A DNA stretch of 64,000 bases from Deltaproteobacteria bacterium (GCA_024276905.1 JAJRWF010000050.1:1-64000), one strand, 5' to 3'; counted from the first letter of the stretch, positions 1 to 15,360 are shown. The notes: generated by a model from the letters alone, not told the origin. Numbers and translations: made by a program.

Positions 1-602
1 AAATCTATGCCTGCATCTGGTCAACCGGCGAAGCATTGCTGTTTCGGGCTGAGATGGAAACCGGCATCTACCTTCAGGGCAAAGAGTTGCGCCAGGAGGT
101 GGTGCACTACATTATTCAGAGTCTGGTGCGTCGGGTCCAGCTGGCTGATCTGGCCGAACAGTTGATCGGTGTCAGTAAAAAACACAACTGGTCATTGATT
201 ATTGCCGGTGAAGGCTGGCATCTTTTTCCGGCCAGCGAACCCTACCGGCGGCGCCATATCACACCGGGCAAGGAACTGGCCCGTTTTTATCAGCGCAGTC
301 GCATCAATCTCCATATCAACGGTGACACCAACGTCCACCCGCGGGTGATGGAGTGCCTGGCCTGCGGAGCCTTTGTCCTGCCACGAGCCAACGTGACCGA
401 CAGTCAACCCGGCGGTCTGTTCGATGTTCTGGATGATCCTGATTATCCTTGTTTCACCGACATGAATGACCTGGAGGAGAAACTGCACTATTTTCTTGCA
501 CATGCCGAAGAAAGAGAGGCGCATGTCATAAAGGCAGGAACCGCCATCCGCGAGAAGTACACCATAAAAACAGCTGCCGATCTGCTGCTGGGGTCTTCCT
601 GA
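1..602 (+). CDS. Glycosyltransferase, C-terminal part (5' end outside window)
   Basis: The frame is open from the window edge (codons begin at base 3) with no stop before 600, so the TTG at 36 in the ORF track is internal and the gene starts upstream. The visible ~200 residues resemble the C-terminal Rossmann half of CgeB-like or group 1 glycosyltransferases: a GEGWH turn, then HPRVMECLACGAFVLP, where the Glu and the following glycine-rich loop usually bind the sugar nucleotide. It is the only + strand gene here and converges on the radical SAM gene at 642. Its position suggests a role in surface or flagellin glycan assembly. The fold is fairly sure; donor and acceptor are unknown. Confidence 0.6.
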   Translation, partial: IYACIWSTGEALLFRAEMETGIYLQGKELRQEVVHYIIQSLVRRVQLADLAEQLIGVSKKHNWSLIIAGEGWHLFPASEPYRRRHITPGKELARFYQRSRINLHINGDTNVHPRVMECLACGAFVLPRANVTDSQPGGLFDVLDDPDYPCFTDMNDLEEKLHYFLAHAEEREAHVIKAGTAIREKYTIKTAADLLLGSS

Positions 603-608
603 GAAGGC

Positions 609-643
609 AAGGACGCGGAACCAGCCGCGTCCTTGTTTGTTTC
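609..643 (+). terminator. Intrinsic terminator after the glycosyltransferase
   Basis: A 10-bp perfect stem (AAGGACGCGG / CCGCGTCCTT) with a six-base loop is followed by GTTTGTTT on the + strand, just after the TGA of the glycosyltransferase. It sits between two convergent genes and may also slow transcription arriving from the - strand operon. Confidence 0.7.
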
Positions 644-1706
644 AGATAAAATTAAGATGGTCCGGGGGATTCTTCAACGACCAGAGGAATTCGTTGATTT
701 CATTCTGACGGCACTTTTCACCACACATGGTTTTCACATCGACCTGCTGCTTGACCCGCTCCATCACCTGGCGATAGCGCTCACCGAAGACGATATCCTT
801 AAATGATTCTTCACAGATGTTACCGATGTAGAATTCCTGCTTGCCAAAGAAATTACCGCAACAGTAAACCTCGCCAGCCCCGTTGATCTGCGGCAGAAAC
901 TCGCAGCCGTAGCAATGATCATAGGTGCGCTGGTTGTATTCCATCTTGCGCCGTTTGATGATCACCCGGTAAGAGTCATCGGCTAAAGACTCGGCCTCCT
1001 GCATCACCTCTTCCAGGGGCGCTATCTCGGTGACAGCATTGCCACGACCGACCTCACCACTTTCCGAGCACTGCTTGATCACCACGTAGTCGACGCCCAG
1101 CTCCTTGCCCAGCCGGGCATAATCGACAATCTGGTCGACACAGTCGGCAATCAGCACCATCTGCATACCGATGGTCACATCCAGGTTGAAACGCTGCTTC
1201 AGTTCAACACAGGTTCTGATGTTGGCCACCACCTTGTCGAAAACCGACTGGGGAACCCCCATGATCTGCTGATATTTGAGCGCATCGGCAGCGCTGATAT
1301 TGAACCTGATCCAGGTCAGGGCCCGCAGAAAATCGAGCAGACCCTCTTCTTTCATCACCACGCCGTTGGTCGAAATCGCCATATCCAGTCCGCAATCGGC
1401 TCCGGCGGTGACCGCTTCGTAGACCCCGGGGTGGAGCATCGGCTCGCCATCACCGAGAAAACCGATCGCCTTGACGCCCATGTCGGCACAGTCGCCAAGA
1501 AAGCGAATCAGGGCCGGGGTGGGGATAATTTTGTCGGTACGGTTTTCCGGCGTTGCGTAGTAGCAGTATTTGCAGGCGATGTTGCATGACTGGGTGATAC
1601 CCATATCAAGATAGAGTGGCGCGATCTGCTGCCCTGTGGCCCAGTCGTGAACCCGGTCAAGATGCCACAAGAGCTTGTGACCGGACATTTTATAGCTGTC
1701 ATCCAT
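642..1706 (-). CDS. Radical SAM/SPASM enzyme, paralogue 1
   Basis: The 354-aa protein has a radical SAM CX3CX2C cluster (C41, C45, C48 in CNIACKYC) for a [4Fe-4S]-SAM centre. Its C-terminal third is cysteine-rich (CYGC, YCCGNFF, CGEKC), as in SPASM domains that hold auxiliary Fe-S clusters. An AAGGA sits eight bases before the ATG at 1706. It is the last gene of the island operon and one of three paralogues that share the N-terminal pattern KLL(W)H..RV..W..G....PL and a C-terminus ending in NFI. SPASM enzymes modify peptides, sugars or other small molecules. The neighbours point to a sugar or glycoprotein substrate, but the reaction cannot be deduced. Confidence 0.85.
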   Translation of the reverse strand: MDDSYKMSGHKLLWHLDRVHDWATGQQIAPLYLDMGITQSCNIACKYCYYATPENRTDKIIPTPALIRFLGDCADMGVKAIGFLGDGEPMLHPGVYEAVTAGADCGLDMAISTNGVVMKEEGLLDFLRALTWIRFNISAADALKYQQIMGVPQSVFDKVVANIRTCVELKQRFNLDVTIGMQMVLIADCVDQIVDYARLGKELGVDYVVIKQCSESGEVGRGNAVTEIAPLEEVMQEAESLADDSYRVIIKRRKMEYNQRTYDHCYGCEFLPQINGAGEVYCCGNFFGKQEFYIGNICEESFKDIVFGERYRQVMERVKQQVDVKTMCGEKCRQNEINEFLWSLKNPPDHLNFI

Positions 1707-1748
1707 TGCAGCGATCCTTTATCTTGCTTGGAAAAATCCTGGGGTTTT

Positions 1749-2837
1749 TCAGATAAAATTCACATGTTGCGGCGGGTGCTTGACCTGCCACAGGAAATCG
1801 TTGACGAAGTGTGATCGACAGTTCGAATAACAGTCGCAATGCACATCGAGCTGCTTGACCCGTTCGACCACGTCCCAGTAACGATCACTCTCGATAATCT
1901 GACGGAACGACTGTTCGACCAGGTCGCCCATGCAGAATTCGTCGACCCGGTGATCAAAAAAGGCCCCGCAGGGGAAGAGCTTGCCGTCGCCGCTGGAATA
2001 GAGCAGAAAAGGCGGCGCGTAGCAGACATCGTAATTGCGGGCACCCTCGTTCTCGATCATGTTCCACTTGATGATGACCTTGTAGTCATCGGTCGCCTGG
2101 GCCTCGGCTTCCTGCAATAACTCGTTAAAATCACGGTATTCCTTCAAGTGGTCGTAGATCCCGAGGGCGCTGTCCGGGGTGTCGCTGCACTGCTTGACCA
2201 CCAGGTAATCAACCCCGAGTTCACGCCCCAGTTTTGCCAGCCCCACCACCTGGTCACGGTTGCTCGGGGTCAGAACCATCTGCAACCCGATGGTCACATC
2301 GAGGTTCTTCTGCCGTTTGATACCGACACAGTACCGGATCTTCTGCATCGCGATTTCGAAATCATCACTATTGTGAATCCGCTTGTAACCTTCGGCACTG
2401 GCGGCACTGATATTGAACCGCAGCCAGGTCAGATATTCGAGTGCCTCCTCGCCCGCAGGCGACATTTCATAAAGGATCCCGTTGCTTCCCAGGGCGATAT
2501 CGACTCCGGCTTTTTTCCCAGCGACAATTGCTTCGTAAACCGCCGGGTTCAGCAAGGGTTCGGCCTCACCGATAAACGCCATCGAACGCACCCCGATGGC
2601 ACCAGCATCAGTGACATAACGCAACAGGCCCTCACGCGGAAAAGCGCGGGGGTCCTTGGTGACAAAGCGGTTGCCCTGCATCGAACCGAAGCAGTATTCG
2701 CACCGAATATTGCAGCTTTTACTCAAGCCGACATCGATGTGCAAGGGGGCGATCCGCTCACCTTGCTGCCATGAGGTCACGCGATCAAGATGCCAGAGAA
2801 GTTTCGAACCTTCCATCTGCAGTTTGCCGTTATTCAT
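1749..2837 (-). CDS. Radical SAM/SPASM enzyme, paralogue 2
   Basis: The 362-aa protein is a close relative of the next downstream gene, with a CX3CX2C motif (C42, C46, C49 in CNIRCEYC), the same KLLWHLDRV N-terminus and a C-terminus ending HPPQHVNFI. Its C-terminal cysteines (CYAPPF, FPCGAFF, CDCYSNC) are spaced differently from paralogue 1, so the auxiliary cluster may differ. AAAGGA precedes the ATG by five bases. The gene lies 43 bases upstream of paralogue 1 and one base downstream of the reductase gene, which supports a single transcript. The role is probably a radical step on a sugar or sugar-peptide; the substrate is unknown. Confidence 0.85.
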   Translation of the reverse strand: MNNGKLQMEGSKLLWHLDRVTSWQQGERIAPLHIDVGLSKSCNIRCEYCFGSMQGNRFVTKDPRAFPREGLLRYVTDAGAIGVRSMAFIGEAEPLLNPAVYEAIVAGKKAGVDIALGSNGILYEMSPAGEEALEYLTWLRFNISAASAEGYKRIHNSDDFEIAMQKIRYCVGIKRQKNLDVTIGLQMVLTPSNRDQVVGLAKLGRELGVDYLVVKQCSDTPDSALGIYDHLKEYRDFNELLQEAEAQATDDYKVIIKWNMIENEGARNYDVCYAPPFLLYSSGDGKLFPCGAFFDHRVDEFCMGDLVEQSFRQIIESDRYWDVVERVKQLDVHCDCYSNCRSHFVNDFLWQVKHPPQHVNFI

Positions 2838-2838
2838 A

Positions 2839-3705
2839 TCAATCCTTTCCCCCTGTCCGAGGGTTCATATCGAGGGTTGCCGCATAGTCGGCCAGCGCAT
2901 CCTGCCAGGGACGCAAAGCTTTTAACTTGACCGAACGCAGTGGGGTAAAATCATTCTTGCGCCCGACCGCAGCAAAATCCTGGTGAGACGCGGCCCGTAT
3001 TTGCACCGCCGGAGCACAGAGCCGACAGAGTTCTTTCATCAGTTCATAAAGTGAAGCCTGACCATCATTCGCGACGTGGTACAGCCCCCAAGGCCGCTCT
3101 TCTGCGACAATTTCCAGCAATTGCCGCGCGACATCCGGCGCATAACTGGGTGAGGCGACGATATCGGCGGCGATTTGCAACTCGGTCTGACCGTTACGGA
3201 TCCGTTCGAGCATCTTTTCTACGAACTGATTCTGTTTGCTGCTCGGACCGAACAGCAACGAGATCCTGAGGATGTAATGCTTGATCGCACCGGCTGTAAT
3301 CAGCTGATCCCCGGACAATTTGGTGACGCCGTAGAGATTGACCGGATCGGGACAATCCTGCTCACTCAAAAAGGCTTTTTTCTCCCCACTGAACACTGCA
3401 TCAGTGCTGAAATGGACCAGCGGGCAGTCGTAGCGCGCTGCCAGCCCGACCAGGTAGCGCGGCAGCAGGGCGTTGAGACAAAAGGCCGCCTGCGGATCAG
3501 CCTCGCTCGGGTCGATTCCCAGATAGGCCACACAATTGACGATCAGATCGGGGCGAAAATCTTCCAGCTGCACCAGCAGCGAATCGGGCTGCGCGGCATC
3601 GAAATCCTGCGAGCTCAGGGCCCTGAGCGTCCACCGGGGCGCAAAAACCTGCTGGATCGCGGTCCCCAATTTTCCGCTGCCGCCGAGTAACAGCATTTTT
3701 TTCAT
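2839..3705 (-). CDS. RmlD-like NAD(P)-dependent sugar reductase/epimerase
   Basis: This is an extended short-chain dehydrogenase related to dTDP-4-dehydrorhamnose reductase. It starts MKKMLLLGGSGKLG, an N-terminal Rossmann glycine motif, and has the catalytic Tyr-Lys pair in LYGVTK, preceded by FSTDAVF with a Ser/Thr typical of the family. I choose the ATG at 3705 (288 aa) because AAAAGG lies nine bases upstream; the longer ORF from 3828 overlaps the transketolase gene. The product probably reduces or epimerises a nucleotide-activated keto-sugar late in the pathway. No rmlA, rmlB or rmlC is nearby, so dTDP-rhamnose is not implied. Confidence 0.75.
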   Translation of the reverse strand: MKKMLLLGGSGKLGTAIQQVFAPRWTLRALSSQDFDAAQPDSLLVQLEDFRPDLIVNCVAYLGIDPSEADPQAAFCLNALLPRYLVGLAARYDCPLVHFSTDAVFSGEKKAFLSEQDCPDPVNLYGVTKLSGDQLITAGAIKHYILRISLLFGPSSKQNQFVEKMLERIRNGQTELQIAADIVASPSYAPDVARQLLEIVAEERPWGLYHVANDGQASLYELMKELCRLCAPAVQIRAASHQDFAAVGRKNDFTPLRSVKLKALRPWQDALADYAATLDMNPRTGGKD

Positions 3706-3731
3706 CGCTGACATCCTTTTCTCTTGTCTGG

Positions 3732-4652
3732 TCAGAGCAGCATCCTGGCCTGGGTAAGGATATTGTCGGCACAGATGCCGAAGCTGTTCATCAGATGAGC
3801 CTGCGAACCATAATCCTCGGGAAAACAATCGGGGACCCCGATCCGTCTGAATTTCGGCACCCTGTCCAGATCGGCTTCGAGCAGCGTCTCGGCGACGGCA
3901 CCACCAAGTCCGCCGATCACCGAATGCTCCTCGACCGTAATCACCGCCCGAACCTGCGAAGCCAGAGCCAGCAGACTTTCAATGTCGAAAGGTTTAATAC
4001 TGTGATAATGCAGAATCGCGGTCGAAACACCCTGGTTTTGCAGGTTTTCGGCGGCTTCCAGCACCAGTTTCAGGGTAATCCCGGTCGAAACCAGCAACAG
4101 CTCGCTGCCACTGGCATAGGTGACCGCTTTGCCGATTGCAACCGGCTGTTCACTGCGGCTGACTACCGGATCAAACCCCTTGCCGAAACGCACATAGATC
4201 GGCCCCTGGTAGTCGGTCGTCAGCAACATCAGCCGCTGCATCTCTTCGGCATCGGCGGGCGCAAGAATCGTCATTCCGGGGATCGCCCGCAACGCCGCCA
4301 GATCCTCGATTACCATGTGGGTCGGACCAAGAGGGGCGTAGACCATCCCGCCGCCGTTACCGAGCAACCGGACATTGACCCGGTGCAGACAAAGATCGAG
4401 CAGAATCTGCTCGTAGGCCCGTCGGGTCAGAAAAGGGGCAATGGTATTGACGTAGGGGATTTTGCCGTTCATGGCCAGTCCGGCGGCCATGGTCAGGATA
4501 TTGGCCTCGCTGATTCCTTCCATGAAGAAGCGTTGCGGAATCTCACGCCGAAAGTCCTCCAGCGTCCCTTCGCCAAGGTCGGAGCCGATAAAGACCACCC
4601 GTTCATCCTGCTGGGCCAGCTGATACACCGTATCGAGACAGGTCTGCCGCAT
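3732..4652 (-). CDS. Transketolase, C-terminal subunit (pyrimidine-binding and C domains)
   Basis: The 306-aa protein matches the second half of a transketolase: an N-terminal pyrimidine-binding domain with FMEGISEANILTMAAGLA, whose Glu activates the thiamine diphosphate ring, then the smaller C-terminal domain (ITVEEHSVIGGLGGAVAE). Its ATG overlaps the stop codon of the N-terminal subunit gene (ATGA), so the two are translationally coupled and should form one heteromeric enzyme. Transketolases move two-carbon ketol units between sugar phosphates. In this operon it could supply a heptulose or longer ketose phosphate to the SIS isomerase. 1-deoxyxylulose-type chemistry cannot be excluded. Confidence 0.85.
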   Translation of the reverse strand: MRQTCLDTVYQLAQQDERVVFIGSDLGEGTLEDFRREIPQRFFMEGISEANILTMAAGLAMNGKIPYVNTIAPFLTRRAYEQILLDLCLHRVNVRLLGNGGGMVYAPLGPTHMVIEDLAALRAIPGMTILAPADAEEMQRLMLLTTDYQGPIYVRFGKGFDPVVSRSEQPVAIGKAVTYASGSELLLVSTGITLKLVLEAAENLQNQGVSTAILHYHSIKPFDIESLLALASQVRAVITVEEHSVIGGLGGAVAETLLEADLDRVPKFRRIGVPDCFPEDYGSQAHLMNSFGICADNILTQARMLL

Positions 4653-5473
4653 CAGTTCACCTCCAGCGCCTGGTAGAGTTCGGCCAATTTTTCTGTCGGC
4701 AACTTGCTCTTGTGATGCCAGGCCAGATTGTTTTCAACCTCGGGAATCCCCTTGCCTTTGACGGTGTGGCAGATGATCGTCCGCGGCTGTCTCCCCGGCG
4801 GGCGCTCCAGCAGCTGTCGCAACGCCGCCAGATCATGGCCATCGACCTCATCGACCTCAAACCCGAAGGCCCGCCACTTGTCAGCAAAGGGATCAAGACT
4901 CTGGATATCCGCCGTCGGACCGTAGGATTGCAACTTGTTACAATCGACCAGTACGCAGAGATTTGCCAGCTGATGTTTGGCCGCCGCCATCGCCGCCTCC
5001 CACACCGAGCCTTCATTGCACTCCCCATCGCCGACAACCACATAAGTACGAGCCGGACTGTCATCCATGCGGGCATTGAGGGCAAAACCGACGCCGAAGG
5101 AAAGACCATGTCCCAGACTGCCGGTCGAGGCCTCGATCCCGGGAACCTTGTGCTCGGGATGACCGCCGAGCAGACCGCCGGGTTTGCAGAAATCCCACAA
5201 TTCAGATTCGGGGAAGAAACCGCGTTCGGCCAGCATCACATAAAGCGCCATACAGCCATGACCCTTGCTGAGGATCAGTCGATCACGCTGCGGCCAGTCG
5301 GGCTGTGCCGAATCGAGTCGCAGAATATCCTCATAAAGAACGCGCAAAATTTCGACCAGTGAAAATGCCGAAGCCAGATGCCCGCGTCCGGCCTCTTCCA
5401 TCATCCGCACCATCTGGTGCCTCAATTCACGCGATCTGCGATCGAGCGGAGTTTTGAGCGGATCAACATTCAT
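4652..5473 (-). CDS. Transketolase, N-terminal subunit (thiamine diphosphate binding)
   Basis: The 273-aa protein carries the thiamine diphosphate/Mg motif GDGECNEG...N, the substrate-site region LSKGHG and GHLASAFS near the N-terminus. The ORF track extends to 5611, but GGAGAAAGGA precedes the ATG at 5473 and the family normally begins near this point (MNVDPLKTPL). It overlaps the upstream kinase gene by 11 bases and the C-terminal subunit gene by four. Split transketolases are common in archaea and in bacterial secondary-sugar clusters. This copy is probably a pathway enzyme rather than the pentose-phosphate housekeeping one. Confidence 0.85.
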   Translation of the reverse strand: MNVDPLKTPLDRRSRELRHQMVRMMEEAGRGHLASAFSLVEILRVLYEDILRLDSAQPDWPQRDRLILSKGHGCMALYVMLAERGFFPESELWDFCKPGGLLGGHPEHKVPGIEASTGSLGHGLSFGVGFALNARMDDSPARTYVVVGDGECNEGSVWEAAMAAAKHQLANLCVLVDCNKLQSYGPTADIQSLDPFADKWRAFGFEVDEVDGHDLAALRQLLERPPGRQPRTIICHTVKGKGIPEVENNLAWHHKSKLPTEKLAELYQALEVN

Positions 5474-6455
5474 CTGCGGTTCCTTTCTCCAATACTTCAA
5501 GTCGAGCCAGCAAACTCTGTGCTTTTTCGAGCTGATATTGCTGACGCTGCTGACGTGAGGCTTTCTCACCGGCAAAACATCGCCGTTGCCAATGCTGCGG
5601 CAAAAATTCATTGAGAAGTAACAACACCCACTTCAGCCCGTGAATCGCATGTGAGTCTTGCCAGCGCTGGTAAAAACTTTCGCCGTAAAGCTCCCTGCAG
5701 CCCTGGAGGAAACTCGCTCTGAACGCAGCGGGCAATTCCATCGACGGATGCCAGAGAAAATCGCTGACCAGCTTGGCCGGGTCGTCACGACCGAAATATT
5801 CAAAATCGACAAACGAAAGACGACCATCTGCAGTACAAAGCGCATTGTGCAGACCGAAATCGGATGGACTCAGAGTCTGTTCTGTTTCGGGCAGCGCTTC
5901 AAAAAAGGCAGATCCGACCGCAGCCTGAAACCTCCTGCTCAACAGCTCGCAACAGGGATCAAAAGCACTGGTCAAAAATTTCTGCAGCCGGCCATCGTCC
6001 ACTCCTGCCAGCTGCTGACGGCGGTCCTGCACCAGAGCAATCGCAGCCCCCGCGCTCAGGCAGGCGTCTGCCGCCGGAGCAAAATCTGGCAGTTCGGCGC
6101 GAAAACCGTGCAACTGGCGGAGAAAATCGAGCAGCTGCGCAAGGATCCGGGTATCCGCTTTTTCAGCGCAGGGATGCTTCCCCGGCAAGCGGCTGTAAAC
6201 CGCGTAGAATTCTGCGGATCGCGCCATCAGCGGACGGGCAACCGGCAAGCCTTTCCGTGACAGAAACTTCAAGGCCATATATTCGGTTTCGAGCCGTCTG
6301 CGCCCGTCATCAACATAGCGCTTGACCAACAGTTCACCATGACGTGGGCTGAAAACCTGCAAGGTCCGACTGTTGCTGCCCTGGTCAATCATTGCGCAAC
6401 TCAAGAGCGGATCTTGCAGTTCTTGTTGCAGCACCTGATTCAATTCTTCTTCCAT
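5463..6455 (-). CDS. Aminoglycoside-phosphotransferase-fold small-molecule kinase
   Basis: The 330-aa protein belongs to the APH/choline kinase family. It has the catalytic loop SPSDFGLHNAL (Asp and Asn at the usual spacing) followed by the metal-binding DFEYFGRDDPAKLVSDFL. The upstream lobe has GELLVKRYVDD, with a likely ATP-binding Lys, and a Glu in LETEYMALKFL. In sugar clusters such enzymes phosphorylate sugars, choline, ethanolamine or similar alcohols. It lies between the HAD and transketolase genes with almost no spacing. Antibiotic resistance is unlikely in this context. The substrate is unknown. Confidence 0.7.
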   Translation of the reverse strand: MEEELNQVLQQELQDPLLSCAMIDQGSNSRTLQVFSPRHGELLVKRYVDDGRRRLETEYMALKFLSRKGLPVARPLMARSAEFYAVYSRLPGKHPCAEKADTRILAQLLDFLRQLHGFRAELPDFAPAADACLSAGAAIALVQDRRQQLAGVDDGRLQKFLTSAFDPCCELLSRRFQAAVGSAFFEALPETEQTLSPSDFGLHNALCTADGRLSFVDFEYFGRDDPAKLVSDFLWHPSMELPAAFRASFLQGCRELYGESFYQRWQDSHAIHGLKWVLLLLNEFLPQHWQRRCFAGEKASRQQRQQYQLEKAQSLLARLEVLEKGTADEC

Positions 6456-6458
6456 TCT

Positions 6459-7058
6459 CTATTCCAGCGCCTGACCGATCTCCTGCCAGTTACGGCAGCA
6501 TTCAATGCCGGGCAGCAACGGCTGAGCGGCAAAAAGAATTCGTCGAATACTCGTTGGAAAATCCCGTTCGGTAAATGTTTCCGGCAGATCATCAATAAAC
6601 AGCTCACAACCGAGGCTGGCGATCCGTCGCACTTTTTCAGCACGGCTTTCTTCAAAAAAAACCTGGTCCGGATTCAACAACCGCCGTTCGAACAAGCTGC
6701 TGCGGACCAGAAACTTGCGCGCCGCCTGATGGAGGTTGACTCCCTCCCGATCCTGGGCGGCAAAACGTGATTTGTGACTGACCACATACAGCTGATCACC
6801 ACGCTTCTGGCAGGCGGCCAGAACCTCCTCCACCCCGTTGAACAGCGTTGCTGCGCCTATCTGCGGGCCGTAGGCCTGGGCCTGCAATCGTTGCCAGGCA
6901 AGTTCACCCTCCGGCTGTACACGCAACCAGTCTCGCAGTGCGGTTTTGTCACGCAGTTTCGTCGGTACTTCATAGCCTGCCTCCCGTGCCAGCAGGAGGA
7001 ACAGCCGGTCATAACAGATCAGGGTGTTATCAAAATCGATACCGATGCGACGGGTCAT
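6459..7058 (-). CDS. HAD-superfamily phosphatase
   Basis: The ~199-aa protein opens with RIGIDFDNTL, the HAD motif I (DxDxT; first Asp the nucleophile, second the acid/base). It has motif II-like VVSHKS and motif IV-like ELFIDDLPE. I favour the ATG at 7058, with AGGA nine bases upstream, over the GTG at 7064. Its position near SIS, PfkB and nucleotidyltransferase genes suggests the GmhB-like step: removal of the distal phosphate from a sugar bisphosphate before nucleotide activation. It does not closely resemble canonical GmhB, which has an extra zinc-binding loop, so that role is inferred from context. Confidence 0.7.
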   Translation of the reverse strand: MTRRIGIDFDNTLICYDRLFLLLAREAGYEVPTKLRDKTALRDWLRVQPEGELAWQRLQAQAYGPQIGAATLFNGVEEVLAACQKRGDQLYVVSHKSRFAAQDREGVNLHQAARKFLVRSSLFERRLLNPDQVFFEESRAEKVRRIASLGCELFIDDLPETFTERDFPTSIRRILFAAQPLLPGIECCRNWQEIGQALE

Positions 7059-7069
7059 GTCCACAAGTC

Positions 7070-8137
7070 CTAAATGAAGTTCACATGCGCGCCGGGATGC
7101 TGCAGTTCGTGCAGATAACGGTTGATCTCATCCATTCGGCAGTTGACCCGGCAGCCGCTGGTATCGAGTTCGTCGGCCACCCAGGCGAGAGATTTCCGGC
7201 GGGCCTCACCCGACCAGATCTGCTCGAAACTCTGCTGATTGATATTGCCGTACAGAAAGCGTTCGTCACCGAGGTGGGCACTGCAACCCCAGACCCCGCC
7301 ACCGGCGTCAATGTAGGACCAGAAGGGTAGCGCCAGACAGCGCGGATAGGCCGGGGCCTCGTCATTCAACTTGGACATGGTCCCGGTCCGCACCAACACC
7401 TTGAAGTTTTCGGTGCTGTAAGAGGCCAACTGTTGCTGCAGATCCTCGATATCCGAATAATCGGTATCGCGGTACTGGTCGGTCTGACTGTGCAGGTGCT
7501 GCGAATAGGGTTTGATGACCAGGTAATCGATGCCGATCTCGCGCCCGATTCCGGCCAGTTCGGCGGCTTCATGTCGATTCTCCGGCAGCAGCAGCATCTG
7601 GAAACCGATGGTGCACTGCCAGTTGTTTTCTGTCCGCAGTTTCACCGCCCGCCAGAAATTTTCGATCACCTTGGCAAAGTCGCTTTCCTTGGTACGGTGG
7701 ATGGCGCTGTAGCTTGAGGCACTCCCGGCATTGATGCTCACCTTGATCCAGCTGAGCTGCGGCAAAATCCAGCGCGCGCGTTCTTCGTCCATCAACACCC
7801 CGTTACTGGTCAGGGCGACATCAATTCCGGCGCTTTTGGCGGCGCCGATCATCTGTGCCAGTTGCGGATGCAGAAAAGGCTCGCCTTCACCGGCGAACAT
7901 CACCGATTTCAATCCCAGCCGTCCCATTTCCTGCAGGCGTTTTTCCAACAGATCGGCATCCAGGTAACGCGGCAGATACTCCATATAATCGAGGGCGCAG
8001 AAGGTGCAGCGGTGGTTGCAGGCCCCGGTCGGACTGATCTCGGCGTAGAGCGGATAAACCTGCTCACCCTGCAACCAGGCATGAACCCGTGGGACATGAA
8101 ACATCAGTTTGTGGCTGTCGATCCGATACTTATCCAT
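7070..8137 (-). CDS. Radical SAM/SPASM enzyme, paralogue 3
   Basis: The ~355-aa protein has a CX3CX2C motif (C40, C44, C47 in CNHRCTFC), a GEGEPFLHP glycine motif for SAM, and C-terminal cysteines (YPRCLAL, GCSAH, SGCRVNC). I take the ATG at 8137, with GGAAGGGA upstream; the ORF to 8239 lies inside the SIS gene. It shares the N-terminal KLMFHVPRV..W pattern and the C-terminal HVNFI with paralogues 1 and 2 but is the most divergent and sits apart, between SIS and HAD genes. The three probably diverged after duplication to act on related substrates. The reaction is unknown. Confidence 0.85.
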   Translation of the reverse strand: MDKYRIDSHKLMFHVPRVHAWLQGEQVYPLYAEISPTGACNHRCTFCALDYMEYLPRYLDADLLEKRLQEMGRLGLKSVMFAGEGEPFLHPQLAQMIGAAKSAGIDVALTSNGVLMDEERARWILPQLSWIKVSINAGSASSYSAIHRTKESDFAKVIENFWRAVKLRTENNWQCTIGFQMLLLPENRHEAAELAGIGREIGIDYLVIKPYSQHLHSQTDQYRDTDYSDIEDLQQQLASYSTENFKVLVRTGTMSKLNDEAPAYPRCLALPFWSYIDAGGGVWGCSAHLGDERFLYGNINQQSFEQIWSGEARRKSLAWVADELDTSGCRVNCRMDEINRYLHELQHPGAHVNFI

Positions 8138-8738
8138 GGGTCCCTTCCGCAGCATCCTCCGCCAGATGAGCCCTTCGTTCGGCAACCTGATCCATCCAGA
8201 AATGCAGAATCGAGGCGTGTCCGCTTTCGGCCGTACCATAGGTATCTGCCGGGAGATACAGGTTGAGCTGGCCCGCCTGACGTAACGGGTTGTCGGCCCG
8301 CATCGCCGACAGGGTCACCACATAACCACCCATGTTACGGGCAGTTTCCACGGCACGTAGGACATTGGGAGAGCCGCCGCTGCTGCTGATTGCGACCAGG
8401 ATGTCGCCCTGGACCATCCGCCGCCGCAAGGGCTCGGCAAAAACCTCATCGTAACTGATGTCGTTAGCGATTGCGGTCAACAGCGACAGATCGCTGAAGA
8501 CCTCGGTGTGGACATAGGCGTTCTTGGCCAGATCGGCCGCCATGTGACTGGCCATCGAGGCACTGGCTCCGTTGCCGATCAGATAGACGGTCCGGCCGGT
8601 CAATGCGGTCCGACAGGTCCAGTCAGTCCAGAGTTCAAACCCTTCATCAGCAGGCAGAATAAACTTGTTGTGGCCTTTACTGATCTGCAGCGCTTCAAGC
8701 TGTCGTTGAAGCAGTCGGCTGTGATCCTGCCAGGTCAT
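8130..8738 (-). CDS. SIS-domain sugar isomerase, phosphoheptose isomerase-like
   Basis: The 202-aa protein is a single SIS domain of GmhA type: GNGASASMASHMAADL binds the sugar phosphate and AISSSGGSPNVLRAVETAR forms the second phosphate loop. A Glu-His pair (ESGHASILHFWMDQV) sits where GmhA has catalytic residues. GmhA converts sedoheptulose 7-phosphate to D-glycero-D-manno-heptose 7-phosphate. AGGGAGA is well placed before the ATG at 8738, so the 44-base overlap with the end of the upstream gene looks real. Context supports a heptose-like phosphate as product, although the exact sugar is inferred. Confidence 0.8.
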   Translation of the reverse strand: MTWQDHSRLLQRQLEALQISKGHNKFILPADEGFELWTDWTCRTALTGRTVYLIGNGASASMASHMAADLAKNAYVHTEVFSDLSLLTAIANDISYDEVFAEPLRRRMVQGDILVAISSSGGSPNVLRAVETARNMGGYVVTLSAMRADNPLRQAGQLNLYLPADTYGTAESGHASILHFWMDQVAERRAHLAEDAAEGTHG

Positions 8739-9726
8739 GAGATTCTCCCTTCATTTGTGCCTCCAGTGTGCCGATGGCGCTCCAGAGAGTCGGAATGGTG
8801 TCGGCGTGACGTCCCTGCAGGTAGATGCTGCGGCCACCATCCTTAACGGTGCGCACCAGCATGGTTTTCCAGGGCCGAAAATAGTAGGCCGGGTCGTCGG
8901 GACAAGGCTCGCAATGGTAATCCGCGGGCAGTTGCGGCAAGTCGGCAACCAGGGTAGTGAAATCGGCAATCTGCTCCTGACGCCGATGCGCGACATTGCG
9001 CACCATGGCCAGGGCCTTCAGATAAACTTCGGGAGCCATCACCGCGCTACCGAAGCTCATCACCACCCCTTTTTCAAGCCGTTCAAGCTCGGCGGCAAAA
9101 CGCAGAAAATCGCGGTAGCTGCAGGCGCCATAGGCCGCACCGTCAAAATCGGGATGCTGATGAATAATGTCCTGCCCGATGCCGATATGAACGGTCAGCG
9201 GAATGCCGAGCCGCCAGGCGGCAGCGGCCAGACTGATCCTGCGATGTGGAAAATCGCTGTTCTCAATCGCTTCACCGACCGCTTCACCCAATCCCTTTCG
9301 CGCCTGCGCCGCCGTGCTGACAATGGCATTGAGACGTCCGGTTTCCTGCCAGAAACCGAACTGGCCGTTACTGATATAACGTTCAACACACTCGGTGGTG
9401 GAACCGATCAAGGCCAGCTCATAATCGTGAATGATCCCGGCACCGTTCATCGCCAGAGCACTGATTAGGCCCCGCTCCATCAGATCGATCAGGTAATGCT
9501 GCACCCCCGAACGAATCACATGGGCACCCATCATCAGCACTGCAGCCCGCTTGTTTTCGCGGGCACTCAATAACTGTTCGGCCAGCAGCTGATAATCGGC
9601 ACTGAAGTCACTGTGCTTCTCAAGCGGCAACAGGATCGACAGGTCGAGCTTGTGCTGCCGCTGTGCCAGCGGCAGCAATTGCAATCGACTGCGATCAAAT
9701 TCACGATAGACCGGCCTGTTGGTCAT
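8695..9726 (-). CDS. Deoxyhypusine-synthase-like protein of unknown reaction
   Basis: I recognise this 343-aa protein only at the fold level. The stretch VIRSGVQHYLIDLMERGLISALAMNGAGIIHDYE lines up by eye with the deoxyhypusine synthase region [30 protein letters not shown]. The later GVVMSFGSAVMAPEV resembles its second glycine motif, and TVHIGIGQDI fits an NAD-binding turn. The family's catalytic Lys context (SWGK) is not obvious; PWKT is the nearest candidate. Bacteria have no eIF5A, so hypusination is not expected. Between a sugar isomerase and a sugar kinase it may perform NAD-dependent chemistry on a sugar or amine. Function should be treated as unknown. Confidence 0.5.
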   Translation of the reverse strand: MTNRPVYREFDRSRLQLLPLAQRQHKLDLSILLPLEKHSDFSADYQLLAEQLLSARENKRAAVLMMGAHVIRSGVQHYLIDLMERGLISALAMNGAGIIHDYELALIGSTTECVERYISNGQFGFWQETGRLNAIVSTAAQARKGLGEAVGEAIENSDFPHRRISLAAAAWRLGIPLTVHIGIGQDIIHQHPDFDGAAYGACSYRDFLRFAAELERLEKGVVMSFGSAVMAPEVYLKALAMVRNVAHRRQEQIADFTTLVADLPQLPADYHCEPCPDDPAYYFRPWKTMLVRTVKDGGRSIYLQGRHADTIPTLWSAIGTLEAQMKGESHDLAGSQPTASTTA

Positions 9727-9745
9727 TCCTGATTCTCCAGCGCTG

Positions 9746-11260
9746 CTATTTCAGCAACGCGGTAATAAACTTGAGGGCCGCCATACGATCGATCGATTTT
9801 TCGTTACCGATAATCTCGACCGCCAGCGAACCGGCAACACTGCCGGTAAAAGCAATCATCTCGTCCGGTGCATCAAGCGCCGCCGCCATGGCCGCAATCG
9901 AAAAGAACGCATCTCCGGCGCCGACCCGGTCAACGGCGTTACGGGCAAAAGAAGGCACCTTGATGAACTCCCCGCGAGTATTGCAAACCTCGCAACCGCG
10001 CCGACCGAGGGTCACGACAAAGCGCCCGGCGCCCAGACGCCTGACCAGATGGTGCAGATAGGGACGTACGTCACCACGCATGTCACGATATTCAAGCCGC
10101 AGTTCGTGCTCGGCCAGGCAGCCGAAATCAGCGCCCGGATAACGTCCGATGGTATTGAAACCACGATTCCCGGCATTGGCCTGGGTGTTAACAGCCAGAA
10201 AGGGCGCCTTCTGCAACAGCCGCACCGTCTCATCGGCGATAGTGCCATGGCCGAAATCAGCCACAATCACCAGATCGTAGTCGCGGATCCGCTGCCGCAA
10301 CCAATCGTTGAAGAGGGCCGTCTGTTCCGGCGGCAAGCCCGAATCATCCATCTCATAGATTTCGAGCAATTTGTTGAGAGAATAAGCATCGATGAAGCGG
10401 CGCTTGGTCAGGGTCGGGGCCTGTGGCTGGGTAAAAAAGACCGGGGTGATGTTGGAGTGCAGATGATTCCGGATAAAATCTTCCTGCGAGTTCTGCTCAC
10501 CGATCACGGTCAGCAGATCAACCTGGCGGGCAAAACCGGCCACATGGTTGGCGACTGCAAAGACGCCTCCGGCGAACAGATCTTCCGAACGGTATTTCAT
10601 CGCCAGGGTCGGATCTTTCGATGATTTGCCGATCGTATCGCAATACTGATAGGCATCCAGAATCGCATCACCGACCACCAGTACCTTGAGCTTTTCCATC
10701 CGCTCAAACAGTGCAGCAATTCCCTCGATACTGGTCCGGGTACGCAACAGATCGAGGTAGCTTTTAAGTTCATCGGGCTGCTGGGAAAAGTAGCGATTGA
10801 TCAAATTCGAGGAACTGAAAACGATGTCACCGGCAAAAGCCAGCTCGGCTCCGACCTCACGCACCACTTCAGCCTCCAGGGCCATTTTGCCGGTCGGGTC
10901 GTTGGCAACTTCCTTGAATTCCCAGCCTTTGACATAGATATCCGGTCGCAACACGCGCAGGGTTTCTTCGGCGGTCGGCCACTGATTGACGACCACAAAG
11001 TCGACCGGATCAAGTGAGGCGATACTTTCGGCCCGCAAATCTTCGGTAAAGGCCGGGCGGCCCGGTCCCTTGTCGACAAAACGATCGGGAGTCAAAGTGA
11101 CCAGCAACAGGTCACCCATCTCCCGTGCCTGCTCAAAGTATCGGATGTGCCCGATATGCAGCAGGTCAAAAACTCCGTGACAATGGACGACCTTCTGCCC
11201 CTTTTCGCGTGCCTGGCCAAGCAACGGCCTGATCTCTTCGATGGTTTTGATCTTGCTCAC
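9746..11260 (-). CDS. Nucleotidyltransferase-PfkB kinase fusion (HldE-like, domains in reverse order)
   Basis: The 504-aa protein joins an N-terminal cytidylyltransferase-fold domain (about residues 1-150; CHGVFDLLHIGH with the HxGH motif, and VKGWEF) to a C-terminal PfkB sugar kinase (about 190-504; DRVGAGDAFFS with the catalytic Asp). HldE makes ADP-heptose by phosphorylating heptose 7-phosphate and later adding AMP, but it has the kinase first. Here the order is swapped, so this is a distinct fusion or permuted architecture. With the SIS and HAD genes it completes a kinase-phosphatase-nucleotidyltransferase path to an NDP-sugar. The nucleotide used (ATP or CTP) cannot be read from sequence. 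Confidence 0.8.
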   Translation of the reverse strand: MSKIKTIEEIRPLLGQAREKGQKVVHCHGVFDLLHIGHIRYFEQAREMGDLLLVTLTPDRFVDKGPGRPAFTEDLRAESIASLDPVDFVVVNQWPTAEETLRVLRPDIYVKGWEFKEVANDPTGKMALEAEVVREVGAELAFAGDIVFSSSNLINRYFSQQPDELKSYLDLLRTRTSIEGIAALFERMEKLKVLVVGDAILDAYQYCDTIGKSSKDPTLAMKYRSEDLFAGGVFAVANHVAGFARQVDLLTVIGEQNSQEDFIRNHLHSNITPVFFTQPQAPTLTKRRFIDAYSLNKLLEIYEMDDSGLPPEQTALFNDWLRQRIRDYDLVIVADFGHGTIADETVRLLQKAPFLAVNTQANAGNRGFNTIGRYPGADFGCLAEHELRLEYRDMRGDVRPYLHHLVRRLGAGRFVVTLGRRGCEVCNTRGEFIKVPSFARNAVDRVGAGDAFFSIAAMAAALDAPDEMIAFTGSVAGSLAVEIIGNEKSIDRMAALKFITALLK

Positions 11261-11273
11261 AATCGGCCCCGTT

Positions 11274-13811
11274 TCAGTTTTCGATCTGCCCCTGCAGATC
11301 AGCTTCTGTTGTCAAATTCTGCTCAAGGGTCTCAAGGAAATGGAGGGCCGCCTGATTCCAGGGCTCACGCTCAAGCACCATATCGAACATCAGCTTTGCC
11401 CCTTCTGTAACCCCGGCCTCCATATAGAGACAGCCCATCTTCAGCATCACTGGCAGATCCTCGCGCACCGCTTCGAGATAGTCGGCGTAGGTATCAAGAG
11501 CCTTGCCCTTGTCACCGGTCAGTTTGAGCATATCGGCGTAGTAGGGCAGATAGGTCGGCGCGATCGAGGCCAGACATTCGGCTGCAAGCAAGGCAGATTC
11601 GCTATCTGTACGCTCAAGAGAAATAGAGAAAACCCGCAGCAGGCCCTCTTCGAGGACACTCCCCTTCTTCTCTTCGGCCAGTTCGTCGATCAAGTTTCGA
11701 TATTCTTCAAGTGCGTCATCAGTTTTTTCGTCAAGCTCGGCAATAAACCCCTGCCCCAGATGCAACAGGGCCTTCTCGTCCGTGCTGCGCTGTGGATCGA
11801 GACAATCAACCAGGTGAGCAAGATTTTCCCTTTCGCCGCGACGGTACAGCAGCTTCAGCTTGCCGCACACCGGTCCCAGTTCCGACCAGGCCCGGGCACG
11901 TGCCATATGCATGGTCTGCCGATCATCGAGATCTTCCTTGAATGCAGCTTCGAAAGCTGCGACCTGCGCCGTCAGTTCTTCAGAAATTGTTATCCCGGGA
12001 TTTCGCTGCCGCCACAGATAGAAGCGTCCGGGCTGTTGATCCCGTTGCCACTGGCTAAAAATCTGCGTCAAATCCGGTGAGCCGGACTCTTCCGCCAGTC
12101 GCGCTTCGAGTCGTTTTTGTGCATCTTCAACCATCTGTAACAAGCGGTCTGCAGTATCCCGGTAGGCCTCGAAATAAATCCGCCCGAGTCGGTCAATATC
12201 CTCGGAGGTCCAGCTGTCTGCGCCCTCGCCCTGGGTCAGCTTGAGAAAATCGCGAATTCCGGCTTTCTTGAGCATCGGATTAAAGACATCAAAACCTTTC
12301 TTCAGTTTCTTCTCGATCCGATCAAGTTTGGCCTTGTACTTCTGTTCTCCCTTACCGCCAGCCACTCGGCCGAAAAAACCGTCATTGGCGCGGACCCCCT
12401 CGCAGGCCAGCTTTCTGATTTCACGAAAAGCACTGGCTGCGGTTTCCAACTCGTCCAGCATTGCCCTCTGGTGAGCAGTCCGCAGTTCGCTATTCTCGGG
12501 CGGCAACCAGTCCGCCAGCATCTCGAAGGCAGGTTGCGGTAACGGGCTCAGTACGATATCGCGCCAACTGGCGTGCGCAACACCATCGATCCTGGCCGCC
12601 CAGTCACCCATATTTATCAGCTGGCAACCGCAGTCAGCCGCCATCGTCGCCTGCCCGGCAATGGTCGAGATCGCAAAATGGAAATCCGCGGTTGTCTCGG
12701 CCATCTCGCCACTGTTGGTTTCGACCCACAACTGTCCGGTTCCGAGTTGCGGCCCGACACCGTATTCGTTACTGCCCTGAGCGTGGGTGAAACCCTTGCG
12801 GCTGAAACAGAGGTCAACCCCGACGAGCAAAATCCGTTCTACTCCGATCTGAACCGCCAGATCGATCGCACAGTTGGTAACCGTCGGCCCGCGGGCGTTA
12901 AATGCCTGATCAGGGTCCTCTTCAACCCATTCCAGCCGCTGCCCCATATAAAAATTTCGCCCGCGCCACTGACCGAGCAGCCGCGAAGAAACATGGTACT
13001 GATTAACGAAAATCGTCCGCTCGTGCAGCAGCAGCATCTCTTTGCTGATGTCATAACTGATCTGGTTGGGGTCAATCGAAACCACGATATCGGGAATCAG
13101 ACCGACTTCGAGCAGACGGCGACAGATGCGTGAGACGGCAATCACCAGCATACTGTCGCGGTTTTCAATCACCCAGGAAATGCTGTCATCAAGGGATGGT
13201 CCGCCACCAAGAACCACGGCAGTGCGACCACTGAAACTGCCGCGCAGGCAGGCCGCCGACAACCGGTTTTCGGCCAGGTTCTCCAGCTGCCGCCGGGTGA
13301 ACAGTTCACTCCCCATCTCGGCATGCAGCATCCAGCGAATCTGCTCCAGTTCTTCCTGCAATTCGCGACCGATCTCCTGATAGGCATCAATATTCAGATC
13401 TTCGGCCGCAATCGAACGATGAAACTGCATATTGTCGAGATAGACATAGTTCTGAAATTCGATGGCGACCGCTTCTTTTTGCCAGCAGTCAAAGGTTGTC
13501 AACATCAGCTTTTCCGAATCTTCCGTCAGGTCAAGCTCGGTCCGTACTTCGTCAATCAGTTCGGGCAGTTCGATAAACATGTAGGTTGTGCCGACAGGCA
13601 GTCCCTTCTGCAGCAGATATTTCGGCAGCAACCCGGAATCGGTACCCAGAAAGACATAGAAATGATTCTCCTCGAAAATCTTCTCATCAAACTGTTTCAG
13701 GTAAACGGCGGCAGAACCGATCTTGTCGAAAGCTGTCCCATTAACCTTGAACAGATAGCGATCTCCAAATGAGTTCTGGATAAAGTCATTCGACTGCTGT
13801 TCGCTCTGCAT
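11274..13811 (-). CDS. Maf/DUF115 family protein (likely flagellin glycosyltransferase), large copy
   Basis: This 845-aa protein contains the DUF115 (MptE-like, motility accessory factor) domain at about 190-420, with AVVLGGGPSLD, VSIDPNQ and ILLVGVDLCFS. The C-terminal half is helical and TPR-like. In Campylobacter, Aeromonas and Clostridium, Maf proteins act in the cytoplasm to add nonulosonic or other sugars to flagellin before export. Here it lies four genes below fliW-csrA and heads a set of sugar-activation genes, supporting flagellin glycosylation. It begins 12 bases after the small gene. Two Maf copies could mean two sites, two sugars or a heteromeric enzyme. Confidence 0.8.
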   Translation of the reverse strand: MQSEQQSNDFIQNSFGDRYLFKVNGTAFDKIGSAAVYLKQFDEKIFEENHFYVFLGTDSGLLPKYLLQKGLPVGTTYMFIELPELIDEVRTELDLTEDSEKLMLTTFDCWQKEAVAIEFQNYVYLDNMQFHRSIAAEDLNIDAYQEIGRELQEELEQIRWMLHAEMGSELFTRRQLENLAENRLSAACLRGSFSGRTAVVLGGGPSLDDSISWVIENRDSMLVIAVSRICRRLLEVGLIPDIVVSIDPNQISYDISKEMLLLHERTIFVNQYHVSSRLLGQWRGRNFYMGQRLEWVEEDPDQAFNARGPTVTNCAIDLAVQIGVERILLVGVDLCFSRKGFTHAQGSNEYGVGPQLGTGQLWVETNSGEMAETTADFHFAISTIAGQATMAADCGCQLINMGDWAARIDGVAHASWRDIVLSPLPQPAFEMLADWLPPENSELRTAHQRAMLDELETAASAFREIRKLACEGVRANDGFFGRVAGGKGEQKYKAKLDRIEKKLKKGFDVFNPMLKKAGIRDFLKLTQGEGADSWTSEDIDRLGRIYFEAYRDTADRLLQMVEDAQKRLEARLAEESGSPDLTQIFSQWQRDQQPGRFYLWRQRNPGITISEELTAQVAAFEAAFKEDLDDRQTMHMARARAWSELGPVCGKLKLLYRRGERENLAHLVDCLDPQRSTDEKALLHLGQGFIAELDEKTDDALEEYRNLIDELAEEKKGSVLEEGLLRVFSISLERTDSESALLAAECLASIAPTYLPYYADMLKLTGDKGKALDTYADYLEAVREDLPVMLKMGCLYMEAGVTEGAKLMFDMVLEREPWNQAALHFLETLEQNLTTEADLQGQIEN

Positions 13812-13822
13812 CCTGATTCCTT

Positions 13823-14080
13823 TCAGTCCGGCAAGCCGGGCAGCAGGTTTTCATATTCAAGAAGATCGGCAACACAGAGAAAATCCATCCGCCCCTGTGC
13901 GGCAACGATCCGGTTGAGCAAGGGTGTAATCCTCTGCAGTTCAGGCGCTGGAGCCCTGCCCAGCAGAGGCTCGACTTCATCGATAAACTGCAGCAAGTGA
14001 TAACTGCCTTCTCCCTCAATTCCGAGACGGAAGTTGCGGACTGCGGCATCCAGATGCATTCGGCAGAGCGGGATACTCAT
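13823..14080 (-). CDS. Small unknown protein between two Maf genes
   Basis: The 85-aa acidic, probably all-helical protein (MSIPLCRMHLDAAVRNFR...) is placed by its ATGA overlap with the stop codon of the upstream Maf gene and by the short gap to the next Maf start. A competing ORF in another frame (13786-14049) would overlap the downstream Maf start and looks like a shadow. I do not recognise a family. Size and setting would suit a chaperone or adaptor linking Maf proteins to flagellin, in the way FliS binds flagellin. That is only a guess from context. Confidence 0.6.
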   Translation of the reverse strand: MSIPLCRMHLDAAVRNFRLGIEGEGSYHLLQFIDEVEPLLGRAPAPELQRITPLLNRIVAAQGRMDFLCVADLLEYENLLPGLPD

Positions 14081-15360
14081 GATGCCTCCTGCAGGTAACT
14101 GGTCCCTGAGATCCTGGCGCCAATACGACTGCCGTTGGTAAATTTCACCTGCGGGTGACTGTCAATGTAGCCTTCAAGATCACGCAGGAAACCGCGCATG
14201 TTCAGATGGGTCGGAACCCGTTCCTGCCTGCCATTAAGAACCCAGTGTTCGTGATTCACTGCCGGAAGCTGAACCTGGACCACACAACCATCAACATGGC
14301 TTTTGCGTTCCGGATAGCAAAAATCAGCACCCAGCAGCACAACCTCAGTCGCTCCGGCCTGTACCGCCAGATCCACCGCTGGATGCAAAACACTGCCGGA
14401 AGAAAAGAGACTGCCGCGCGGTTGCTGCAGCGCCAGTTCGGCATACAGGGGATGACGGGCGTAGGCACAGAAGCGGATCCCCGGCCAGGCCTCCAGGACA
14501 CTGTGGTGAACCAGCGGAAAGTAGACCAGCGCCGCATTCTCCAGTCGAACCCTGTCAATCCCCTCGAAAAAGGGCAGGATCCTTGTGTCGTGGGGGTCGA
14601 TGGTCAACACCACGTCGGGGGTAATCCCGGCCGCGAGCAAGGGCTTAAGAGCCGCATCGACCACAATCAGCCAGATACGGTCACGTTCTTTTCTCAACAA
14701 CTCGAAATGCTGTGCCAGACTGGGTCCGGCTGCAGCCACTACCGCCCGCTTGTCACCAATGCGGTCGAAGAACAAGGCCACATCCTCATCCTGCTCGATA
14801 TAGGCGTCATTCGCGATCAGTCGCTGCTGCAGCCGGGCATTGCCCGCTCCACAACGGCGCCTGATGGCCGGCGTGGCCAGTTCGAGCACAATCCTGTCCC
14901 GCAGCTCACAGGCCGATTCATCTGCCAGTTGCAGGCAAACCGGCGCAGCCGCAAAGGGCAGCCGCGGGTTTTTGAGCCTTTCTGCAGTCAAAAGATTGAC
15001 CCTTGAATCCTCAAGCCAACCGCGTTGATCGAAGTGCTCAAGGCAACAGCGCGCCACAGCAAGGTTCATCATCACCACATTCAGTTGTTGAAGTTCAGAA
15101 CGCTCCAGCAGCACCTGCTGCAAATCCCCCAGCGCCAGACCATAGACCTGCGCGGTCGTACTCTCCCGCGGGACCAGTGAAGCCTGCAATTGCGCTTCAC
15201 TGCGCCGGTCGAAACAACTGGTCAGCTGCAAGCCCTGAATCTGCAAACTCGGTTCAATAACCCGCACCGCTTCAACTTCGGTCAGGACCGTTGCGGCAGC
15301 AAGCCGAGCCCCCAATTCGGGCCAGCGTTGATCGATTATCTGGAGGTTTTGGTCGAACAC
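14077..15360 (-). CDS. Maf/DUF115 family protein (likely flagellin glycosyltransferase), short copy
   Basis: The 427-aa protein carries the DUF115 domain: AVVAAAGPSLAQH (glycine motif), PDVVLTIDPHD and EVVLLGADFCYPE, in the same order as the larger copy. It lacks the long helical C-terminus. It starts at a GTG (15360) with GGAG eight bases upstream and is the first gene of the island operon, about 275 bases after fliW and a terminator. Maf proteins glycosylate flagellin in the cytoplasm; donor and acceptor sites here are unknown. Confidence 0.8.
   Translation of the reverse strand: MFDQNLQIIDQRWPELGARLAAATVLTEVEAVRVIEPSLQIQGLQLTSCFDRRSEAQLQASLVPRESTTAQVYGLALGDLQQVLLERSELQQLNVVMMNLAVARCCLEHFDQRGWLEDSRVNLLTAERLKNPRLPFAAAPVCLQLADESACELRDRIVLELATPAIRRRCGAGNARLQQRLIANDAYIEQDEDVALFFDRIGDKRAVVAAAGPSLAQHFELLRKERDRIWLIVVDAALKPLLAAGITPDVVLTIDPHDTRILPFFEGIDRVRLENAALVYFPLVHHSVLEAWPGIRFCAYARHPLYAELALQQPRGSLFSSGSVLHPAVDLAVQAGATEVVLLGADFCYPERKSHVDGCVVQVQLPAVNHEHWVLNGRQERVPTHLNMRGFLRDLEGYIDSHPQVKFTNGSRIGARISGTSYLQEAS

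Follow-up and report, generated by a model that had tools for sequence, protein, structure and literature searches.

A stretch of 64,000 nucleotides from a Deltaproteobacteria bacterium (GCA_024276905.1 JAJRWF010000050.1:1-64000; hereafter the window) carries beside its flagellar genes an island of fourteen genes (642-15360), and by a narrow lean we favor the reading that this island makes a nucleoside diphosphate (NDP)-heptose and converts it into a two-carbon-branched sugar of about nine carbons, which would be placed on flagellin or on its legionaminic-acid glycan. In a more specific version, which we advance tentatively and rate somewhat below even, a radical SAM protein (rSAM1) replaces the nicotinamide adenine dinucleotide (NAD)-dependent heptose C4-dehydrogenase, and the keto-heptose passes to a split transketolase (TK) or a pyruvate dehydrogenase E1 (PDH-E1)-like pair that would yield the nine-carbon branched sugar, used in this genus on flagellin with legionaminic acid. 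We infer the reactions from gene content, motifs, co-occurrence, exclusion, adjacency and the flagellar locus, all of which were observed.

An open reading frame (ORF) scan of the window gave 14 minus-strand ORFs running from 15360 to 642, in which neighbors overlap or lie 1-42 bp apart. The families named for them in a preliminary description of this DNA held up, since the Pfam and NCBIfam assignments agree with its domain calls and the catalytic signatures are preserved in the nucleotidyltransferase-PfkB fusion (NT-PfkB), the N-terminal half of the split transketolase (TKN), the APH-fold kinase and the HAD-type phosphatase; each of the three radical SAM proteins (rSAM1, rSAM2 and rSAM3) retains CX3CX2C. 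More likely start codons were placed at 8137 for rSAM1, 5473 for TKN and 3711 for the RmlD-like reductase; the TKN frame is open to 5611, with homology beginning near 5473. When other genomes were searched for the same gene set, as the preliminary description had suggested, all 14 genes were found in identical order and at the matching position in a sister species (L025; 69-97% identity, with rSAM1 at 92% and RmlD at 80%), and parts of the set recurred across the phylum. The GC content of the island shows no contrast with its flanks, and a horizontal origin, judged by base composition, was rejected.

The evidence for a ketone-forming step comes from the gene adjacent to a predicted NDP-heptose core, which consists of NT-PfkB, a GSU2086-family protein and a GmhA-like SIS isomerase. 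Module neighborhoods were taken around members of the island's GSU2086 subfamily in a phylum set of 395 genomes. The core-adjacent gene encodes rSAM1 in 7/17 core genomes and a short-chain dehydrogenase/reductase (SDR), D_epi, in 9/17, and both occur together in none (P = 4e-4 under independence). Only this within-core test counts, since across the 395 genomes the non-overlap of rSAM1 and D_epi has no power, with fewer than one overlap expected by chance. The nearest solved relative of D_epi is 6VO6/6VO8 (187 bits), presumably Cj1427 of Campylobacter jejuni. The closest solved relatives of rSAM1 in a PDB profile search (E <= 1e-8) are DesII and BlsE, radical enzymes that act on sugars, and BtrN was not among the matches at this threshold. 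The cysteines of the CX3CX2C motif (C40, C44, C47) and four further ones (C267, C285, C329, C333) are invariant in 8 rSAM1 proteins, and the four-cysteine pattern is that of a single auxiliary cluster, twitch-like, as in BtrN. Cj1427 is a probable GDP-heptose C4-dehydrogenase (PMC10680097), and BtrN is a radical SAM alcohol dehydrogenase with one auxiliary cluster that oxidizes a ring alcohol (PMC9012708). The exchange with D_epi suggests that rSAM1 forms a keto-sugar.

The slot beyond the ketone maker is occupied by one of three kinds of split enzyme dependent on thiamine diphosphate (ThDP): a TK about 60% identical to that of the window and accompanied by HAD and APH, a divergent split TK, or a PDH-E1 alpha/beta pair. 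In the window the ThDP motif of TKN (GDG-N) is intact. A profile search of the phylum with rSAM1 yielded further loci, mostly without the core, and at all 19 loci with enough flank rSAM1 has a split ThDP enzyme no more than 1.8 kb away, usually within 160 bp, while the control lipopolysaccharide (LPS)-heptose loci contained neither rSAM1 (0/6) nor a ThDP gene (0/6). A GT9 (heptosyltransferase-family) gene is present at every rSAM1 locus that lacks heptose-core genes (10/10; PF01075 confirmed in three), and one locus (L171) has the SIS, NT-PfkB, TK, HAD and APH genes and lacks that of the GSU2086-family protein. In the TK tree, the rSAM1 locus L062 clusters with the D_epi loci L067, L068 and L070, and the two locus types are intermixed in the divergent TK clade; this interleaving shows that the ketone maker was exchanged while the ThDP enzyme was retained. 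Because a ThDP carboligase beside a keto-NDP-sugar maker is the arrangement of branched-sugar pathways, we propose a two-carbon branching for the island. The branching of keto-sugars is a known or proposed activity of the YerE, alpha-KADH2 and split-TK classes of ThDP enzymes, and for the split transketolases of miharamycin and amipurimycin, where the candidates listed are all from Streptomyces, such branching is proposed and unproven (PMC12247030). The longer or branched sugar that the preliminary description had envisaged for the transketolase and radical enzymes is thus supported by the adjacency and the exchange, with the reactions themselves predicted.

We consider it unlikely that the product is instead an unbranched modified heptose, for which the TK would merely supply sedoheptulose 7-phosphate or another ketose phosphate to the SIS isomerase, and the radical enzymes would epimerize or deoxygenate the NDP-heptose. 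TK is the usual source of sedoheptulose 7-phosphate, sugar-acting SPASM radical enzymes are often epimerases or dehydratases, and HAD and APH would suit the handling of phosphosugars. However, the genome has a separate full-length TK (L108), the PDH-E1 alpha/beta pair that stands in the place of TK at related loci is not expected to form sedoheptulose 7-phosphate, and ThDP genes adjoin rSAM1 even where heptose-core genes are missing.

Beyond these loci, a compact cassette of rSAM1, E1alpha, E1beta, a glycosyltransferase, a B12-type radical SAM protein and GT9 was seen in several families (L164-L170, L172) without NDP-sugar genes, and is possibly an LPS heptose branching cassette. In the SDR-type clusters L067, L068 and L070, a conserved methyltransferase-like gene of ~221 aa follows the C-terminal transketolase half (TKC) and is absent from the window.

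The predicted heptose core contains relatives of a GmhA-like isomerase, a heptose-7-phosphate 1-kinase and a heptose-1-phosphate nucleotidyltransferase, all of which score below the HldE/GmhA equivalog cut-offs. In NT-PfkB, HxGH at residue 35 and GAGD at residue 447 are invariant in 12 homologues. The NDP-heptose logic that had been read in the first half of the island stands for the isomerase, kinase and nucleotidyltransferase. The HAD phosphatase has catalytic motifs and accompanies APH and TK rather than the core; the genome carries a gmhB at another place. The protein previously called deoxyhypusine-synthase (DHS)-like has no Pfam match above cut-off and no DHS family match in Pfam or NCBIfam, and by sequence it belongs to the GSU2086 family (NF052581); the earlier name holds for its fold. 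In its predicted structure (predicted local distance difference test, pLDDT, 90.6), Foldseek found DHS and AgrE with a probability of 1.00 and a template modeling (TM) score of ~0.5 over ~300 columns, a resemblance to DHS and LOR/SDH-type NAD enzymes. Against solved structures, a single-sequence search gave no match and a profile search gave only 20-bit matches to AgrE/ArgZ. From its fold, this protein may catalyze an NAD-dependent reaction of heptose metabolism.

In Geobacter sulfurreducens, GSU2085 (hldE), GSU2086 and GSU2087 (gmhA) are adjacent (PMC5585712), and the order gmhA-GSU2086-hldE-gmhB was found in L029 and L077. A GSU2086 match is present in 242/395 genomes of the phylum. The island's own subfamily, distinguished by an insertion at the C-terminus and the motif FRPWKT, occurs in 17 genomes including that of the window, with 55-61% identity among its members and mostly 41-51% for the other matches; 10 of the 17 carry a second GSU2086 match. 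Because the subfamily is distinct and a canonical hldE-gmhB is present separately in the window's genome, the island core is a heptose pathway paralogous to that of LPS and not the LPS pathway itself. A second core type, with a free nucleotidyltransferase gene and a divergent NT-PfkB fusion (35% identical to the window's), was observed in L027, L028, L064, L069 and L072-L074. Across the 395 genomes, LPS-type GSU2086 and HldD (TIGR02197 over cut-off) occur together in 14 genomes against 51 expected (p ~1e-20, uncorrected for kinship) and, when counted by family, in 14 against ~21 expected (p = 0.001); GSU2086 may replace the ADP-heptose epimerase or may mark a different heptose pathway.

In the proposed pathway, the GmhA-like isomerase, PfkB kinase and nucleotidyltransferase would convert sedoheptulose 7-phosphate into an NDP-heptose, with an additional NAD-dependent conversion by the DHS-fold protein. 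Acting in the role of the Cj1427-like SDR, rSAM1 would then oxidize a ring hydroxyl, probably at C4, to a ketone, onto which the split transketolase would transfer a two-carbon ketol unit, so that the resulting branched sugar would bear a tertiary alcohol; APH and HAD may help with a phosphorylated substrate or donor. The RmlD-like enzyme would reduce the branch ketone, rSAM2 and rSAM3 would introduce further changes, and the Maf proteins and the ~860-aa glycosyltransferase would assemble the glycan on flagellin. The oxidized carbon, the nucleotide, the order of steps, the attachment and the structure of the sugar are all predictions.

Among the accessory enzymes, the HAD protein has a Pfam match below cut-off, no NCBIfam match and no solved relative in a profile search; its residues D10-x-D12-x-T14, S96, K144 and D158-D159, which fit a HAD enzyme, are invariant in 7 homologues. 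In APH, D199 and N204 (D-x4-N) and D217-F218-E219 (DFE) are invariant. HAD was found with APH at 8 loci, each of which has a transketolase, and the pair is missing from all of the ~20 loci that carry E1 or divergent-TK enzymes. Since rSAM2 and rSAM3 form a clade separate from rSAM1 and are found with either ketone maker, their step probably differs from that of rSAM1. It is very improbable that rSAM2 and rSAM3, perhaps with rSAM1, modify a protein or peptide such as flagellin side chains instead of a sugar: peptides are frequent substrates of SPASM-type enzymes, and the nearest NCBIfam family, matched far under its cut-off, is a tungsten-enzyme maturase, but no precursor peptide was seen except the 85-aa ORF, which matched nothing in Pfam and NCBIfam searches, and rSAM2-like genes recur near TK/E1 and NDP-sugar genes, also in the flagellin-less L072 and L074.

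The island stands right after csrA-fliW, as described earlier, but 275 bp with a strong terminator-like hairpin lie between fliW and its first gene. Because of this hairpin the island is probably transcribed on its own, and co-transcription with csrA-fliW is unlikely. From our reading of the ORFs, 16-48 kb of the window is a long flagellar gene cluster. Beyond the island, the sister species carries a convergent 860-aa glycosyltransferase (PF13524), NeuA, PtmE, NeuC, NeuB, an acetyltransferase-like gene, LegC and LegB, and these legionaminic genes adjoin two flagellin genes and fliD; LegB, LegC, NeuC and NeuB exceed the NCBIfam cut-offs. The window's genome has the same legionaminic set and three flagellins on contig C166, the end of which (L107) overlaps the start of the window's contig; the overlap, of at least 31 bp, falls within a single glycosyltransferase gene, whose remainder follows the legionaminic cluster on C166. 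The contigs thus join, and the island therefore lies between csrA-fliW and the legionaminic and flagellin genes, in the order fliW - island - glycosyltransferase - NeuA/PtmE/NeuC/NeuB/LegC/LegB - fliC that is seen in the sister species and implied here by the joins.

The stretch after fliW is a flagellar-glycosylation site of variable content. Among relatives from the same family or order, it holds maf together with pseudaminic (Pse) or legionaminic (Leg) biosynthesis genes (L096, L099, L101, L103) or, within the short stretch covered, maf alone (L102), and several congeners have neither maf nor Pse/Leg genes there. In L099 and L101, homologues of maf1 (45% identical) lie downstream of fliW together with Leg/Pse genes, and those of maf2 lie (37-51%) after fliW in L096, L099, L101, L102 and L103. 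At the flagellar locus of the window, maf genes and nonulosonic-acid genes are both present, the combination by which a flagellin glycosylation island is recognized. In a second genome (G441:C48; L120, L121, L071), an rSAM1-TK-core cluster was observed ~20 kb from maf-like genes and flagellin.

The flagellar part of the earlier claim, that of a rare flagellin sugar, stands for the setting of the island but not for the sugar module. The sugar-building core is a general surface-sugar module that was recruited here, since it is present in flagellin-less genomes, and only its setting here is flagellar. The preliminary description had named conservation in non-motile relatives without flagellar genes as a refutation of a flagellin sugar; such conservation was found for the core and not for the 14-gene island, and the flagellar tie holds only for the version with Maf genes that the two sister species carry at their flagellar locus. 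An excess of flagellin in rSAM1-type (5/7) over SDR-type (2/9) genomes was not significant (p = 0.13). It is improbable, in our estimate, that the sugar made by the island is destined for LPS, capsule or some other envelope polymer, with Maf1 and Maf2 serving legionaminic acid only and sharing the operon by chance of locus evolution. The complete legionaminic set at the locus agrees with this possibility, as does the occurrence of the core in general surface-glycan clusters with NeuB/PseB genes and in genomes without flagellin. In both species, however, maf1, the small ORF and maf2 form one operon with the sugar genes, which they overlap or adjoin, between csrA-fliW and fliC, the GC content of the island equals that of the flagellar cluster, and the same site serves flagellar glycosylation in relatives. 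Its position argues that the island's sugar may be used on the flagellum, for which the large convergent glycosyltransferase is a better candidate than Maf.

Several points weigh against the proposal of a branched flagellar sugar. Flagellin is absent from 9/18 genomes with the core, 7 of which are at least 93% complete. The identity of 6VO6/6VO8 with Cj1427 is presumed; the AlphaFold2 model of rSAM1 is of low confidence (pLDDT 64.6), and rSAM1 could be an epimerase or dehydratase instead. The split-TK class has no in vitro demonstration of keto-sugar acceptance (PMC12247030). The substrate of Maf may be legionaminic acid and not the sugar of the island, since a legionaminic cluster is present at the locus and Maf enzymes normally transfer nonulosonic acids (PMC11339370).

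Table 1. Features of the island and its immediate neighbors, with positions counted from the first nucleotide of the window.
Feature	Position	Strand	Evidence
fliW and csrA, end of flagellar gene cluster	15636..16336	-	PF02623, PF02599
Terminator-like hairpin between fliW and island, 12-bp stem and T tail	15573..15599	-
maf1, Maf/DUF115 (MptE-like) candidate flagellin glycosyltransferase, 427 aa, GTG start	14077..15360	-	PF01973, 114 bits
85-aa ORF without family	13823..14080	-	85% identical in sister species L025
maf2, large Maf/DUF115 protein, 845 aa	11274..13811	-	PF01973, 153 bits
NT-PfkB fusion, candidate heptose-1-phosphate nucleotidyltransferase and heptose-7-phosphate 1-kinase	9746..11260	-	PfkB and cytidylyltransferase-like domains
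GSU2086-family protein, DHS/LOR-SDH-type fold	8695..9726	-	NF052581, 378 bits (cut-off 250)
GmhA-like SIS isomerase, candidate sedoheptulose-7-phosphate isomerase	8130..8738	-	PF13580 (SIS_2); TIGR00441, 68 bits
rSAM1, Radical_SAM and SPASM, proposed NDP-heptose dehydrogenase (ketone maker)	7070..8137	-	Four C-terminal Cys; D_epi exclusion; ThDP adjacency
HAD-type phosphatase	6459..7064	-	Motifs; co-occurs with APH and TK
APH-fold small-molecule kinase	5463..6455	-	PF01636, 49 bits
TKN, split transketolase N-terminal half, ThDP site GDG...N	4652..5473	-	PF00456
TKC, split transketolase C-terminal half	3732..4652	-	PF02779, PF02780
RmlD-like reductase, proposed branch-ketone reducer	2839..3711	-	PF04321, 194 bits
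rSAM2, radical SAM/SPASM, second clade, proposed later modification	1749..2837	-
rSAM3, radical SAM/SPASM, second clade, proposed later modification	642..1706	-
Glycosyltransferase C-terminal part (full ~860 aa), cut by contig end, convergent with island	3..602	+	PF13524

The statement that no pathway with this gene set has been described agrees with our literature searches (flagellin/radical SAM/transketolase, deoxyhypusine synthase/heptose and split-gene transketolase), which found no published description of one. The island resembles ADP-/GDP-heptose biosynthesis (GmhA, HldE or HddA/HddC, GmhB) in its SIS isomerase, PfkB kinase and cytidylyltransferase-fold nucleotidyltransferase, but its fusion order is reversed relative to HldE (nucleotidyltransferase first), it has no clear GmhB, and it has extra downstream enzymes. 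The GSU2086 protein is common to the island and to the LPS heptose operons of many Desulfobacterota, although the island's paralogue belongs to a distinct subfamily (55-61% identity within, 35-48% to the LPS type). In the capsular heptose modification of C. jejuni (Cj1427/MlghA C4-dehydrogenase, epimerases and C4 reductases), the NDP-heptose is likewise first converted into a keto-heptose, as predicted here, and clusters related to the island carry the SDR closest to 6VO6/6VO8; in contrast, the island has a radical SAM protein in the SDR position, followed by a ThDP enzyme in place of the epimerases. The split TK or E1 alpha/beta architecture is shared with the pathways of yersiniose (YerE), avilamycin and paulomycin (AviB1/B2, Pau11/Pau12), and miharamycin and amipurimycin. 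In ThDP sugar branching, a two-carbon unit is transferred onto a keto-sugar and then reduced, as we propose for the island. Unlike the Streptomyces split transketolases (PMC12247030), those found here belong to surface-sugar clusters of Desulfobacterota and Nitrospinota, with a probable heptose and a radical SAM ketone maker. Flagellin islands with Maf and pseudaminic or legionaminic acid are alike in position, in their Maf proteins and in a legionaminic cluster by the flagellin genes, whereas here a second, unrelated sugar pathway lies between fliW and the legionaminic genes.

Overall, the island offers a set of genes with which the synthesis of a bacterial surface sugar without a described pathway can be tested, and the exchange of rSAM1 with an SDR dehydrogenase ties this unassigned radical SAM family to a specific predicted reaction. 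Its split transketolases, which are not from Streptomyces, offer a direct test bed for the unproven proposal of keto-sugar branching, and the widespread GSU2086 family gains a pointer to a role in heptose metabolism. If the proposal is true, sugar branching of the transketolase type would be seen for the first time outside the antibiotics of Streptomyces, and surface sugars would have a new route of general use.

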